Positions 12,701-43,723 of a stretch of DNA of 64,000 bases are shown here, in pieces. The position numbers were made by a program, and so were the translations under genes. Below the pieces are notes generated by a model, which saw nothing but the letters and a program-made list of their open reading frames with translations, was not told the DNA's origin and searched no databases. Every line of letters starts with the position of its first letter. Positions within the stretch are counted from its first letter, which is position 1. This stretch comes from Falsibacillus albus (lineage in GTDB: Bacteria > Bacillota > Bacilli > Bacillales > DSM-25281): the NCBI RefSeq assembly GCF_003668575.1, contig NZ_RCVZ01000012.1, positions 1 to 64,000 on the forward strand, given 5' to 3'.

Positions 12701-12752
12701 AATCCAGCCCTGCCCTTTGGTGCCTGTCACTAAAGGGCAGGGCTGGATTTTT
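12701..12752. terminator. CCTGT-apex hairpin H1
   Basis: A perfect 18-bp stem (12701-12718 with 12732-12749) is capped by GGTGCCTGTCACT and followed by TTT. It lies between convergent genes and can terminate both. It is the longest member of the family sharing the GTG-CCTGT-CAC apex. Confidence 0.85.
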
Positions 12753-17190: not shown

Positions 17191-17270
17191 TTTTTTGGAT
17201 TTTGTGTAGGGGGGTGTCTGGTGAAGTTCGTCTATTTTAGTGAACAGACGTCGAGAGGGGGGAGAGTTTA

Positions 17271-17813
17271 TTGGATCAGTCGTTGATCGAACAGGTGCTT
17301 AAGGGGAATGATCATGCGTTCCGGATCATCATTGAAAGATACCGACAGGATCTCTTTCGAAGCATCTATGCCATTTTACGAAACCAAAAGGATTCAGAGG
17401 ATGCGCTTCAGGAAGTTTTCATCAAAATATACACTTCTCTCCCCCGATATGAGAATCAAGGCTTCAAGACATGGATTACGAGGATTGCCGTCAATCATGC
17501 CATTGATATGAAACGGAAGCAGCAAAGAAGGCGGGAGAATCTGAACGAGGATATTGAACAAACAATCTCGGATGATCTTCAGCTTGAAAGCTTGGAGGCG
17601 AATATTTTAAAAAAGGAAAAGGTATTGCTGCTTCGTCGAAAGCTTGACGATTTGCCAGACAATTATCGAGATGTGATATATGGATTTTACATAGAAGAGA
17701 AAACATATCAGCAGCTTGCAAGTGAACAGCATCAGCAAGTTAAGACGATTGAAACGAAATTATACAGAGCTAGGCAATGGATGAAAAAGCATTGGAAGGA
17801 GGATGATTTCTGA
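17271..17813 (+). CDS. ECF-type RNA polymerase sigma factor
   Basis: A 180-residue ECF sigma factor. Region 2 spans about residues 22-90 (DALQEVFIKIY and TWITRIAVNHAID) and region 4 about 122-175 (LPDNYRDVIYGFYIEEKTYQQLA, then a recognition helix). The start is TTG at 17271 with AGGGGGGAGAG upstream. Its TGA overlaps the ATG of the anti-sigma gene, the classic layout for a sigma/anti-sigma pair. No clear autoregulatory promoter was identified. The signal sensed is unknown. Confidence 0.92.
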   Translation: MDQSLIEQVLKGNDHAFRIIIERYRQDLFRSIYAILRNQKDSEDALQEVFIKIYTSLPRYENQGFKTWITRIAVNHAIDMKRKQQRRRENLNEDIEQTISDDLQLESLEANILKKEKVLLLRRKLDDLPDNYRDVIYGFYIEEKTYQQLASEQHQQVKTIETKLYRARQWMKKHWKEDDF

Positions 17814-18301
17814 TGAATCATATCCCTTATGAAAAATGGCTTTTATATGTTAAGGATGAGTTGCCTCGGGGCATGAAGAATGAATATGAGGACCATATGT
17901 ATGAGTGTGACCATTGTATGGCGCTTTATATGAAGGCAGTCGAAGCATGGGAAGATGATTTTCCCGCCATTCGGGATGGAGCTGCCATCACCAATTCCAT
18001 CATGGATGAAATCATGCAGATTTCCACGGTCATATCTCCAGCAAAAGAAGAGGGGTATTCGCAGCAGAAAGATAAGATCAAAACGGGTGCATTTCATCAA
18101 AAGCCCATTTTCCATTATGTTGTTGCAGCGGCTATGACGCTCCTGCTGATGTCTTCCGGCATCTTCCAGACGATATCGTCATATGTAAATCAGTTCGAGC
18201 AATCTGCCCAGCAGCCGAATACATCGTTTACAAAACATATCATGAATAAAACAGTATCCATCGTTGACCGGGTGGAAAATGAATCCAAGGAGGAGAAATA
18301 A
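17813..18301 (+). CDS. Zinc-finger anti-sigma factor
   Basis: A 162-residue single-pass membrane protein. The cytoplasmic N-terminal zinc-binding ZAS-type motif HMYECDHC (H-x3-C-x2-C) lies at about residues 23-30. A transmembrane helix is at about 103-125 (HYVVAAAMTLLLMSSGIF) and the outside tail is short. It would hold the ECF sigma factor inactive and release it after proteolysis or a conformational signal. It overlaps the sigma gene by one base. Confidence 0.88.
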   Translation: MNHIPYEKWLLYVKDELPRGMKNEYEDHMYECDHCMALYMKAVEAWEDDFPAIRDGAAITNSIMDEIMQISTVISPAKEEGYSQQKDKIKTGAFHQKPIFHYVVAAAMTLLLMSSGIFQTISSYVNQFEQSAQQPNTSFTKHIMNKTVSIVDRVENESKEEK

Positions 18302-18302
18302 T

Positions 18303-19382
18303 TTGAAAAACCCTATCATTGCATTCTTATTGGCCTTCTTTCCAGGAGGAGGACTGTTGTATCTTGGAAAAGTAATAAGGGGGCTTGCCTATACATTTGC
18401 TGTATTTGGATTACCGATCATCATGTTCATCGGCATGAAGTTAACATATGGGGATGGGTTCTTCATCCTCTTTGGATTAGGTGGACTCCTGATTTATTTA
18501 ATCAACTTCATCGATACAGCCATCACTGCTTCAAGACTTTATCAAACGCCTTCTAAGGATGAGGTCGATCGCACGTCCACAAATCAGGAATCAGAAAGAT
18601 TCTTTACGATCATCCTGTCCTTTGTTCCAGGACTTGGCCACTTCCAGCTTGGGTTGATGAATCGTGGAATCAGTTTTTTGGCAGCGTTCTTAGGGCTTGG
18701 GGTCATGGTTCTATTCATTACGTTCCTATCCCACCGTGAGGAATTTGTTGTGTTTCTTGCATTTCTTCCTATGATTTGGGTCTACAACTTTTTTGATGCA
18801 ATGCAGCAGTTGAATAAGAAACAGCGTGGAGAAGCATTAATGGATCGTTCCATCATGGAAGACTTTGAAGAGCGCCGAGAAAGCGGGAAAAAGAGTAAAT
18901 CGGTCGCCACATTTCTCTCCATCTTCCCTGGCGCCGGCCACCTTTATTTGGGACTCCAGAAGAGAGGGGTCCAATTGATGGCAGGGTTCCTGTTTTCCAT
19001 TTATATTTTGGACGTCTTGCGGCTGGGGATCTTCCTTTTCCTTGTTCCGATCATTTGGTTTTACAGCTTTTTTGACGGACTCCAGAAGGCATCGAAGGCG
19101 GGCCAGGAAGAGCTGGAGGACAGACCGGTCATTTATTATTTGATCAATCATCAGCGGTGGATCGGGATCGGACTGCTGCTGCTGGGCCTCTATTATTTGA
19201 CGAGCAATGTACTTGTACCTGCGCTGACACCGGTGCTATACAACATCATAAATATCGATTTGACTTTCTGGTTTGACCGCTATTTCCAAACAGGGGTCGT
19301 CAGCGTCATTTTAATTGCAGGCGGAATCAAGCTGATGTTGGGAACGAAAAGAAAACCGAATGAACAGAAGGTGGCAGAATAA
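18303..19382 (+). CDS. Polytopic membrane protein with three TM2-like repeats
   Basis: A 359-residue protein. Three homologous modules start at about residues 8, 105 and 202, each with an F-x-PG-x-G-x-x-x-LG-x-x-x-RG core: FFPGGGLLYLGKVIRG, FVPGLGHFQLGLMNRG and IFPGAGHLYLGLQKRG. Each is followed by two or three hydrophobic helices. The start is TTG at 18303 with AAGGAGGAG upstream. It is third in the sigma/anti-sigma operon and overlaps the next gene by one base, so it is probably a target or co-sensor. No enzymatic motif is seen. Confidence 0.8.
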   Translation: MKNPIIAFLLAFFPGGGLLYLGKVIRGLAYTFAVFGLPIIMFIGMKLTYGDGFFILFGLGGLLIYLINFIDTAITASRLYQTPSKDEVDRTSTNQESERFFTIILSFVPGLGHFQLGLMNRGISFLAAFLGLGVMVLFITFLSHREEFVVFLAFLPMIWVYNFFDAMQQLNKKQRGEALMDRSIMEDFEERRESGKKSKSVATFLSIFPGAGHLYLGLQKRGVQLMAGFLFSIYILDVLRLGIFLFLVPIIWFYSFFDGLQKASKAGQEELEDRPVIYYLINHQRWIGIGLLLLGLYYLTSNVLVPALTPVLYNIINIDLTFWFDRYFQTGVVSVILIAGGIKLMLGTKRKPNEQKVAE

Positions 19383-20299
19383 TGAGAACTTGGCGTGTCG
19401 GAACGATTACTATGGGAGCAGCACTTCTGTTCCTGGGGGTATTTTTGCTGCTGATAGGAGTATTGGATATTGACGGTACGCAAGTGATGATGGCGTGGTG
19501 GCCGGTTCTATTAATCATCCTCGGAGGAGAGATCCTTGTATTTCTTTATTTGAAAAAGGATGAAAAAGCATCGCTGAAATTTGATTTGCTCAGCATCTTT
19601 TTTGTAGGACTGATTGGAACAATCGGCATCGGCCTTTCCGCTTTAACGGCAACAGGAGTATTGGCAAAGGTTACGGATACGATGAATGCTGAAATAAGAA
19701 CAGAGGATCTTCCGGCATTTAATCAAACGTTTGATCAAGGGATAAAAAGGGTGGTCATACAAGCTGGAGAGCAGCCATTAACGATTGAAGGCTCGAGTGG
19801 AAGCGCCCTTTCCATCTTCGGTACCTACCGGGCGGACATGATGAAAGGCAAAAGCTTGATCAGCAAATCGCAGGATTACGTTCAGTCTGAAAAACATGGA
19901 GATACGTTATACCTCACATTGAAAAGGCCGCCTGCAATCATTCGGCCATTCGATACTTCTGCAGAATTGTCAGCTACCGTTGTCGTTCCCAGTAAGTTAA
20001 TGCTTGAGGTGGAAGCCGGCCAGCAATCCATCTCTTTGAAACCTAGGAAGATGATTACGAACTGGACCATCCATAATGGCGGAGATGTCTCCATCCAAGT
20101 TTCACCAAAAACGGATATGACAGTTTACGCCGATCATGTGGAAAGCTTTGGGGAAGCTGAAGGATGGGTCCCTGCAGCAAGCAAGAATACAGGGGATCAC
20201 TCAGGCAGCCAGTCTTCAGCCGTCCTTAAAATAGGAAAAGGCACCAATTCATTGTCCATCGACCATTCATACAGCATCAACATCATCCACCAAAACTAA
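19382..20299 (+). CDS. LiaI/LiaF-like membrane protein with beta-rich outer domain
   Basis: A 305-residue protein with three helices in residues 6-100 (LiaI/DUF5668-like pattern with MMAWWPVLLIILGGEILVF). An extracytoplasmic beta-repeat domain from about 120 to the end resembles the DUF4097/LiaF adhesin-like fold. Such proteins sense or respond to envelope stress. It is the last gene of the ECF operon, ending in hairpin H4. Family assignment is by architecture only. Confidence 0.72.
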   Translation: MRTWRVGTITMGAALLFLGVFLLLIGVLDIDGTQVMMAWWPVLLIILGGEILVFLYLKKDEKASLKFDLLSIFFVGLIGTIGIGLSALTATGVLAKVTDTMNAEIRTEDLPAFNQTFDQGIKRVVIQAGEQPLTIEGSSGSALSIFGTYRADMMKGKSLISKSQDYVQSEKHGDTLYLTLKRPPAIIRPFDTSAELSATVVVPSKLMLEVEAGQQSISLKPRKMITNWTIHNGGDVSIQVSPKTDMTVYADHVESFGEAEGWVPAASKNTGDHSGSQSSAVLKIGKGTNSLSIDHSYSINIIHQN

Positions 20300-20303
20300 C
20301 CCC

Positions 20304-20346
20304 AGCCCCCCTCTCACAGGTGCCTGTCACCAAGGAGGGGGGCTGT
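20304..20346 (+). terminator. CCTGT-apex hairpin H4 / terminator
   Basis: AGCCCCCCTC...AGGTG pairs with CACC...GAGGGGGGCT across the loop CCTGT, directly after the last gene of the ECF operon. The following T-tract is short. Confidence 0.7.
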
Positions 20347-43674: not shown

Positions 43675-43723
43675 GTGCAGGGCTCCCCATTTTAGGCAGC
43701 CCTGCACTTTGGTGACAGGCACC
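43675..43723. repeat. Hairpin H6 with adjacent GGTGACAGGCACC
   Basis: GTGCAGGGCT pairs with AGCCCTGCAC, and 3 nt later stands GGTGACAGGCACC, the reverse complement of the apex motif of the other CCTGT hairpins. Here the motif is outside the main stem. It separates the convergent C45 and nitroreductase genes. Confidence 0.6.

Follow-up and report, generated by a model that had tools for sequence, protein, structure and literature searches.

The first 64,000 nucleotides of contig NZ_RCVZ01000012.1 of Falsibacillus albus (hereafter, the window) contain a four-gene operon built around an extracytoplasmic function (ECF) sigma factor. The genes, all on the forward strand, lie where an initial annotation of the window, made from its letters alone, had placed them. 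The operon and its borders comprise the following features:

17205..17234, forward strand: predicted autoregulated ECF promoter, with the -35 box TGTAGGG at 17205-17211, a 17-nucleotide spacer and the -10 box CGTCTA at 17229-17234
17271..17813, forward strand: ECF sigma factor gene, 180 amino acids, TTG start
17813..18301, forward strand: gene for an anti-sigma protein of the zinc-binding (ZAS) type, 162 amino acids, overlapping the sigma gene at TGATG
18303..19382, forward strand: gene 3, triple-module membrane protein, 359 amino acids, TTG start
19382..20299, forward strand: gene 4, LiaF-like protein, 305 amino acids, overlapping gene 3 at TAATG
20303..20345, forward strand: hairpin at the operon end, -30.2 kcal/mol, z -2.5

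Gene 3 starts after a one-base gap past the stop codon of the anti-sigma gene, and the last two genes overlap by one base (TAATG at 19382), as had been noticed initially. The single hairpin said to close the operon corresponds to the strong structure at 20303-20345. Since it has no T run and is not among the calls of the terminator scan, its role as an intrinsic terminator is likely and no more.

The product of the first gene is an ECF (group IV) sigma factor: Pfam Sigma70_r2 and Sigma70_r4_2, as well as TIGR02937, are matched over their cut-offs, and the protein consists of regions 2 and 4 only, its length falling within the 160–200 residues or so typical of the group. The closest solved structure is SigW (5wuq, E 1.9e-19). 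The scores against the subfamily models are 78.5 of 147.95 bits for SigM_subfam, 80.7 of 243.1 for SigW and 62.2 of 190 for SigV. The region-4.2 helix, K-T-[VI]-E-[ST]-[KR]-L-Y-R-A-[RK], is common in the sigma family; a similar helix may exist in other ECF factors, and for this reason nothing is concluded from it about -35 recognition. It should be noted that the 4.5-Mb genome to which the window belongs (G000) has 29 places over the TIGR02937 cut-off, i.e., many factors of the sigma-70 family.

The second protein has the zinc motif HxxxCxxC (H28-x3-C32-x2-C35) and one hydrophobic span (residues 100-118, free of lysine and arginine), the combination that defines ZAS-type anti-sigma factors; its outer tail is short and acidic, about 44 residues long. 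All 33 aligned sequences share H3, H28, C32 and C35, which bears out the assignment as a zinc anti-sigma. Its profile finds RsiW as the best match among solved structures (E 0.025, over the zinc motif). Pfam zf-HC2 has no match in the window protein and is matched at E <= 0.01 by 7 of the 33 aligned sequences.

Gene 3 encodes three copies of one helical TM2/DUF6677-like module followed by a separate C-terminal helix pair. Profile-profile comparison of the module pairs with hhalign gave probabilities of 96.4, 95.7 and 99.1 %, vs 0.1-1.0 % for controls (reversed or C-terminal), so that the three repeats originally discerned in the sequence are real. The structure prediction proposed at that stage yielded an AlphaFold2 model that is nearly all helical (predicted local distance difference test, pLDDT, 75.6; predicted template modeling score, pTM, 0.53). 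No informative solved fold was found for it, with Foldseek E >= 3.3 and a best VIA Z of 5.6 at a root-mean-square deviation (rmsd) of 17.5. The window protein scores below the gathering cut-offs of both TM2 (PF05154; 16.5 of 27.9 bits) and DUF6677 (PF20382; 23.1 of 24.3 bits), while 33 of 38 gene 3 sequences match DUF6677 at E <= 0.01. Like TM2 and DUF6677 proteins, it has the PGxG..YLG..RG motif followed by helices; unlike them, it fuses three modules and is tied to a sigma factor. A search of genome contigs yielded 303 relatives of gene 3. In genus g154, gene 3 seemed to contain an in-frame stop, a reading that was dismissed: the open reading frame (ORF) is intact in G631 (L313), the one of five genomes that was checked, and the match overruns the ORF start, which we read as an edge effect.

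The fourth protein has three hydrophobic spans and a C-terminal beta domain (model pLDDT 83.3). The LiaF-TM or LiaI-LiaF-like_TM1 families are matched at E <= 0.01 by all 36 aligned gene 4 sequences, but the window protein itself stays below the Pfam cut-off (17.9 of 27 bits for the LiaF transmembrane model). The beta domain resembles 4qrk (Foldseek E 1.5e-9; VIA Z 9.8, rmsd 4.3 over 145 residues) and thus has the fold of the DUF4097-type "adhesin" or Toastrack domains; Pfam DUF4097 itself has no match in the window protein. Lysines and arginines average 2.0 at the N-terminus and 3.0 in the loop that joins spans 2 and 3, vs 0.36 in the one joining spans 1 and 2, and this distribution of positive charge places the beta domain outside, where it had been expected.

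The first line of evidence for a functional unit is the linkage of the four genes. We considered 80 related loci from named genomes and then 199 genomes of the order Bacillales; gene 3, gene 4 or the promoter served as the query in each case, and sigma homologues lacking gene 3 lie outside the scope of these searches. Among the named loci, sigma and anti-sigma genes precede gene 3 in 79 of 80 (the exception, L052, is at a contig end), and gene 4 follows it in 79 of 80 (exception L035). In the order, gene 3 is present at 59 places in 58 of the 199 genomes, and a sigma gene adjoins it at 57 of these. Homologues of the last two genes are therefore not found mostly apart from the sigma/anti-sigma pair, the pattern that the initial annotation had named as the one that would speak against its proposal. 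The gene-neighborhood search across Bacillales suggested there also found gene 4 homologues in 46 of the 199 genomes, beside gene 3 in 45 of them; in the exception, G005 (L310), gene 4 has no sigma match nearby. This conservation in relatives rules out a chance grouping of the four genes.

The linkage is strictest where gene 3 is full-length: at all 48 such places a sigma gene is adjacent, and an anti-sigma is detectable at 46 (not at L216 and L225). Gene 4 is missing at 10 of the 48 (L126, from the same genus as the window, L138-L141, L146, L212, L218, L222 and L224) and is a fragment at L122. Since gene 4 is lost at 10 of 48 loci and sigma at none, these data, from a sample selected on gene 3, favor gene 3 as the core membrane partner of the sigma factor and gene 4 as an accessory. 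At the 11 short or odd gene 3 places sigma is found in 9, being absent at L161 (G010) and at L230 (G137), which is broken. There is, furthermore, a second form of the unit, in which a one-module gene 3 (open frames of 154-199 amino acids) has its own sigma, anti-sigma and gene 4; units of this form at L154, L155, L157, L159 and L160 occupy a different chromosomal site, with a CapA-like neighbor in several genomes. In a sample of 299 genomes from the phylum, gene 3 is matched in 46 genomes besides that of the window. The best 29 loci were inspected, and tblastn at E <= 1 detects sigma at 28 of them, anti-sigma at 26 and gene 4 at 27. The gene 3 homologues have one, two or three modules, judging by the stretch of the profile matched, and the gene order is that of the window.

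These observations make it very improbable that the operon is an ordinary system of the SigM or SigX type with the extra genes as passengers that share no function with it. In its favor, the sigma factor scores with many of the ECF models, and loss of gene 4 does occur; against it, the scores of the window sigma fall far short of the SigM, SigW and SigV cut-offs, and the loci of the phylum sample retain both the gene order and the linkage.

The second line of evidence is the promoter. TGTAGG-N17/18-CGTYTA or a near form lies upstream of sigma in all but one (L028) of 80 loci, namely the window and 79 relatives that have a sigma gene, with a spacer of 18 in 70 loci and 17 in 9. Across 49 loci retained after dereplication, conservation extends to both boxes and to an A/T tract before the -35 box but not to the spacer, part of the box conservation being built into the search pattern. 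A loose pattern is present in 42 of 48 long-form loci of the order, in 7/7 short-form and 0/2 odd ones, and, in the phylum sample, in 22 of the 26 loci whose upstream DNA is readable. The corresponding counts for the strict pattern TG[CTA]AGGG-N15..18-CGTCTA are 26/48, 5/7, 0/2 and 10/26; none is expected in mononucleotide shuffles, a control that covers the strict pattern only. The recurrence of motif and spacing upstream of sigma thus indicates that the promoter travels with the genes. A second promoter within the operon, or before the diacylglycerol-kinase-like gene downstream (from 20844), which we take from its position and sequence to be dgkB, was considered and rejected, as the window has no TG[CTA]AGGG-CGTYTA site elsewhere. 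AAC-type -35 boxes are common among ECF promoters without being strictly required. Here the conserved box is TGTAGGG, elsewhere TGCAGGG or TGAAGGG, and so is not of this type; other departures, e.g., tGTTAC, are known (PMC3397946). We infer that TGTAGGG-N16/17-CGTCTA is read by the operon's own sigma factor.

Extra copies of this promoter provide the third line of evidence. Exact TGTAGGG-N16/17-CGTCTA was searched in 199 and then in 397 genomes (the latter including the former), with the 87 genomes that have a full-length gene 3 (48 + 39) regarded as carriers and the other 310 as non-carriers. Apart from the operons' own promoters, there are 25 exact sites in carriers (17 + 8) and 26 in non-carriers (11 + 15), of which 48 of 51 were inspected (25/25 and 23/26; G283, G344 and G289 were counted as not placed). 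An automatic rule, formulated after the sites had been seen, accepted as promoter-placed those sites that lie outside ORFs with a sense ORF within 300 bases and no opposing ORF between. It was passed by 20 of 25 carrier sites vs 6 of 23 non-carrier sites (p 4e-4), and 17 of 87 carrier genomes vs 6 of 310 non-carriers have such sites (p 5e-8), p-values that are optimistic because related genomes are not independent. The envelope theme emerged from the first 199 genomes and is repeated in the later 198, where the rule accepts 7 of the 8 additional carrier sites, though mostly in the same genera. The carrier sites at L151, L192 and L238 (inside genes) and at L144 (no sense gene behind) were judged to be chance matches. 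Family matches were run for ten example targets; the genes behind the carrier sites include:

LtaS: G052, G037, G107 and G235, so that the promoter sites span two families of bacteria
RodA/FtsW: G347 and G243
S11 D,D-carboxypeptidase: G189, G342, G381 and G322, and, outside the rule, G080; the gene is a target both adjoining the operon and, in G322, at another place
UppP (BacA/UppP) and an asparagine synthase (asnB): G052
Glycosyltransferase of the monogalactosyldiacylglycerol (MGDG)-synthase type, followed by a DedA-like gene: G189
M15 peptidase (D,D-carboxypeptidase): G143
Efflux adaptor with ABC genes: G163 and G238
Large secreted-looking protein with an ABC gene: G020 and G125
A different ECF-like sigma gene, directly behind the promoter: G167 (L200, 846-1423), possibly a sigma cascade
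Small membrane-like protein: G073

Two genomes without gene 3 have the promoter before dgkB. In G058 it lies at L147, 4257-4286, and passes the placement rule; in G184 (L204, 866-1134) a C-terminal remnant of gene 4 stands between the promoter and dgkB. Both are relics, footprints of the loss of the operon. In two genomes that belong to a single genus (L144, 1712, in G052; L207, 910, in G089), the promoter pattern also follows two paired genes resembling small multidrug transporters; with no sense gene behind it, it perhaps serves a small RNA there.

The distribution of these sites bears on the question of which sigma factor reads them. Several sigma factors coexist in such genomes, as the matches in G000 illustrate, and some ECF operons are cross-regulated, so that TGTAGGG might be read by another ECF sigma with the operon as just one of its targets. 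We regard this as improbable, because throughout the phylum the motif stays with this sigma gene, the promoter-placed extra sites are enriched in carriers, and the non-carriers G058 and G184 retain the motif solely as a relic before dgkB.

Taken together, the operon, the repeats, the linkage, the conserved promoter and the envelope genes behind its extra copies in carriers, all read from sequence, suggest that the four genes form a self-activating switch for envelope homeostasis, comparable to SigM-YhdL-YhdK with different membrane partners and a different promoter code; in our opinion the probability of this reading is about 0.6. The unit is ancient and widespread, and Bacillus-like bacteria probably use it to adjust the cell wall under stress. 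At rest, the membrane-bound zinc anti-sigma would hold the sigma factor, with the gene 3 protein as its regular membrane partner, and the gene 4 protein, its beta domain outside, would tune this restraint from the wall side. Disturbed synthesis of the cell wall or of lipoteichoic acid would release the sigma factor, which would then read TGTAGGG-N16/17-CGTCTA and amplify its own operon, thereby restoring the brake as well. In several lineages, wall and lipoteichoic-acid genes would be driven by the operon-type promoter too. Restraint by gene 3, tuning by gene 4 and the nature of the signal are proposals. The initial suggestion, an envelope-stress module whose membrane proteins sense or execute the response, is supported: the linkage speaks for a module, and the promoter common to the operon and envelope genes for an envelope role. 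The membrane proteins may be sensors, restraints on the sigma factor or effectors.

Besides the optimistic p-values, several points weigh against the proposed switch. In G000 itself only the operon promoter was found; the patterns tried there, which did not include the TGCAGGG and TGAAGGG forms, gave no second site, so that the direct regulon in this genome may be the operon alone. Eight genera account for the promoter-placed carrier sites, and 5 of the 25 carrier sites fail the placement rule, L194 among them, yet this site precedes an S11 gene by homology. The quality of the gene 3 model is just moderate (pTM 0.53). The relicts at L310, with gene 4 and no sigma, and at L161, with a one-module gene 3 and no sigma, suggest that the proteins of genes 3 and 4 can persist without the switch. 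Moreover, published ECF classification could already number this group. As for two-mismatch matches in G000 (L208-L210), none is promoter-placed before an envelope gene.

Some of the same facts would fit a different division of labor, in which sigma and anti-sigma sense stress alone, by RsiW-like proteolysis, and genes 3 and 4 are the output, shoring up the membrane as LiaI/LiaF or PspC do. Genes 3 and 4 are indeed the sole visible output in G000, where the promoter is seen solely at the operon; relicts retain one or the other without sigma; and folds of the Toastrack/DUF4097 type, to which the beta domain of gene 4 is similar, have been tied to envelope stress (PMC11237479). Nevertheless, we consider this unlikely, given that promoter copies before wall genes in carriers represent outputs beyond these two genes, that ten carriers have lost gene 4 and kept sigma, and that an anti-sigma with so short an outer tail has little to serve as a sensor. 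A broader version of the switch can be entertained only tentatively: an undescribed, phylum-wide ECF class, composed of sigma, zinc anti-sigma, a TM2-like partner of 1-3 modules and a protein with an outer beta domain. Its own promoter code (TGYAGGG/TGAAGGG-CGTCTA) would be retained in distant lineages, and the class would adjust the synthesis of lipoteichoic acid and peptidoglycan to the condition of the envelope. The module protein would then be a new kind of membrane sensor and co-anti-sigma, and the class would have a SigM-like role in carrier lineages.

Among known systems, SigM-YhdL-YhdK of B. subtilis offers the closest parallel to the proposed switch. According to PMC6827917, it is an autoregulated ECF operon with an established two-protein anti-sigma, in which the membrane anti-sigma requires a second membrane protein for full restraint, and its targets are rodA and other wall genes. 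The likeness is one of function only: the window sigma belongs by score to a different subfamily, the anti-sigma is of the zinc type, its partner is a three-module TM2-like protein, and there is a LiaF-like fourth gene. The -35 box is likewise different, TGTAGGG instead of the AAC type. RsiW/SigW shares the HxxxCxxC anti-sigma, SigW being also the best solved relative of the sigma factor, and differs in lacking the extra membrane genes in the operon and in its -35 box. The LiaF operon carries the two-component genes liaSR; gene 4, in contrast, is linked to an ECF sigma unit and not to liaSR. Its architecture, a LiaF-type transmembrane part followed by a DUF4097/Toastrack-type beta domain, is that of LiaF in LiaFSR and of the Toastrack operons, partners of the phage shock protein (PSP) system. 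Ravi et al. (2024; PMC11237479), in the sections available, mention a four-gene Toastrack context and also a sigma factor that is operonically linked. Unlike the window unit, this context contains a DUF2089-like protein, and those sections do not mention TM2-like repeats, an ECF anti-sigma or a TGTAGGG promoter; they also argue for a beta domain inside the cell, in contrast to the outside location indicated here by the charge pattern.

No published description of the four-gene unit was found in the literature searched, which took in neither subscription papers nor the published classification of ECF factors. Most work on Bacillus ECF sigma factors has dealt with the seven that B. subtilis possesses. 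The present unit occurs in many genera of Bacillales and elsewhere in the phylum, with gene order and promoter retained, and leads to genes for lipoteichoic acid and peptidoglycan. It offers a defined promoter and a short list of genes for future research. It also provides a context for the TM2/DUF6677-type repeats, of whose role in bacteria the same literature yielded no account.

Two features of the flanks may be added. A dgkB match lies within the fetched stretch at 71 of the 80 related loci from named genomes. The repeat GGTGCCTGTCACC occurs in the window at 12719, 14895, 17153 and 20319 on the forward strand and at 43711 on the reverse strand (4 exact copies and 1 with a single mismatch), where shuffles of the window are expected to contain 0 copies; two of the copies bracket the operon, each of them in an intergenic hairpin region.

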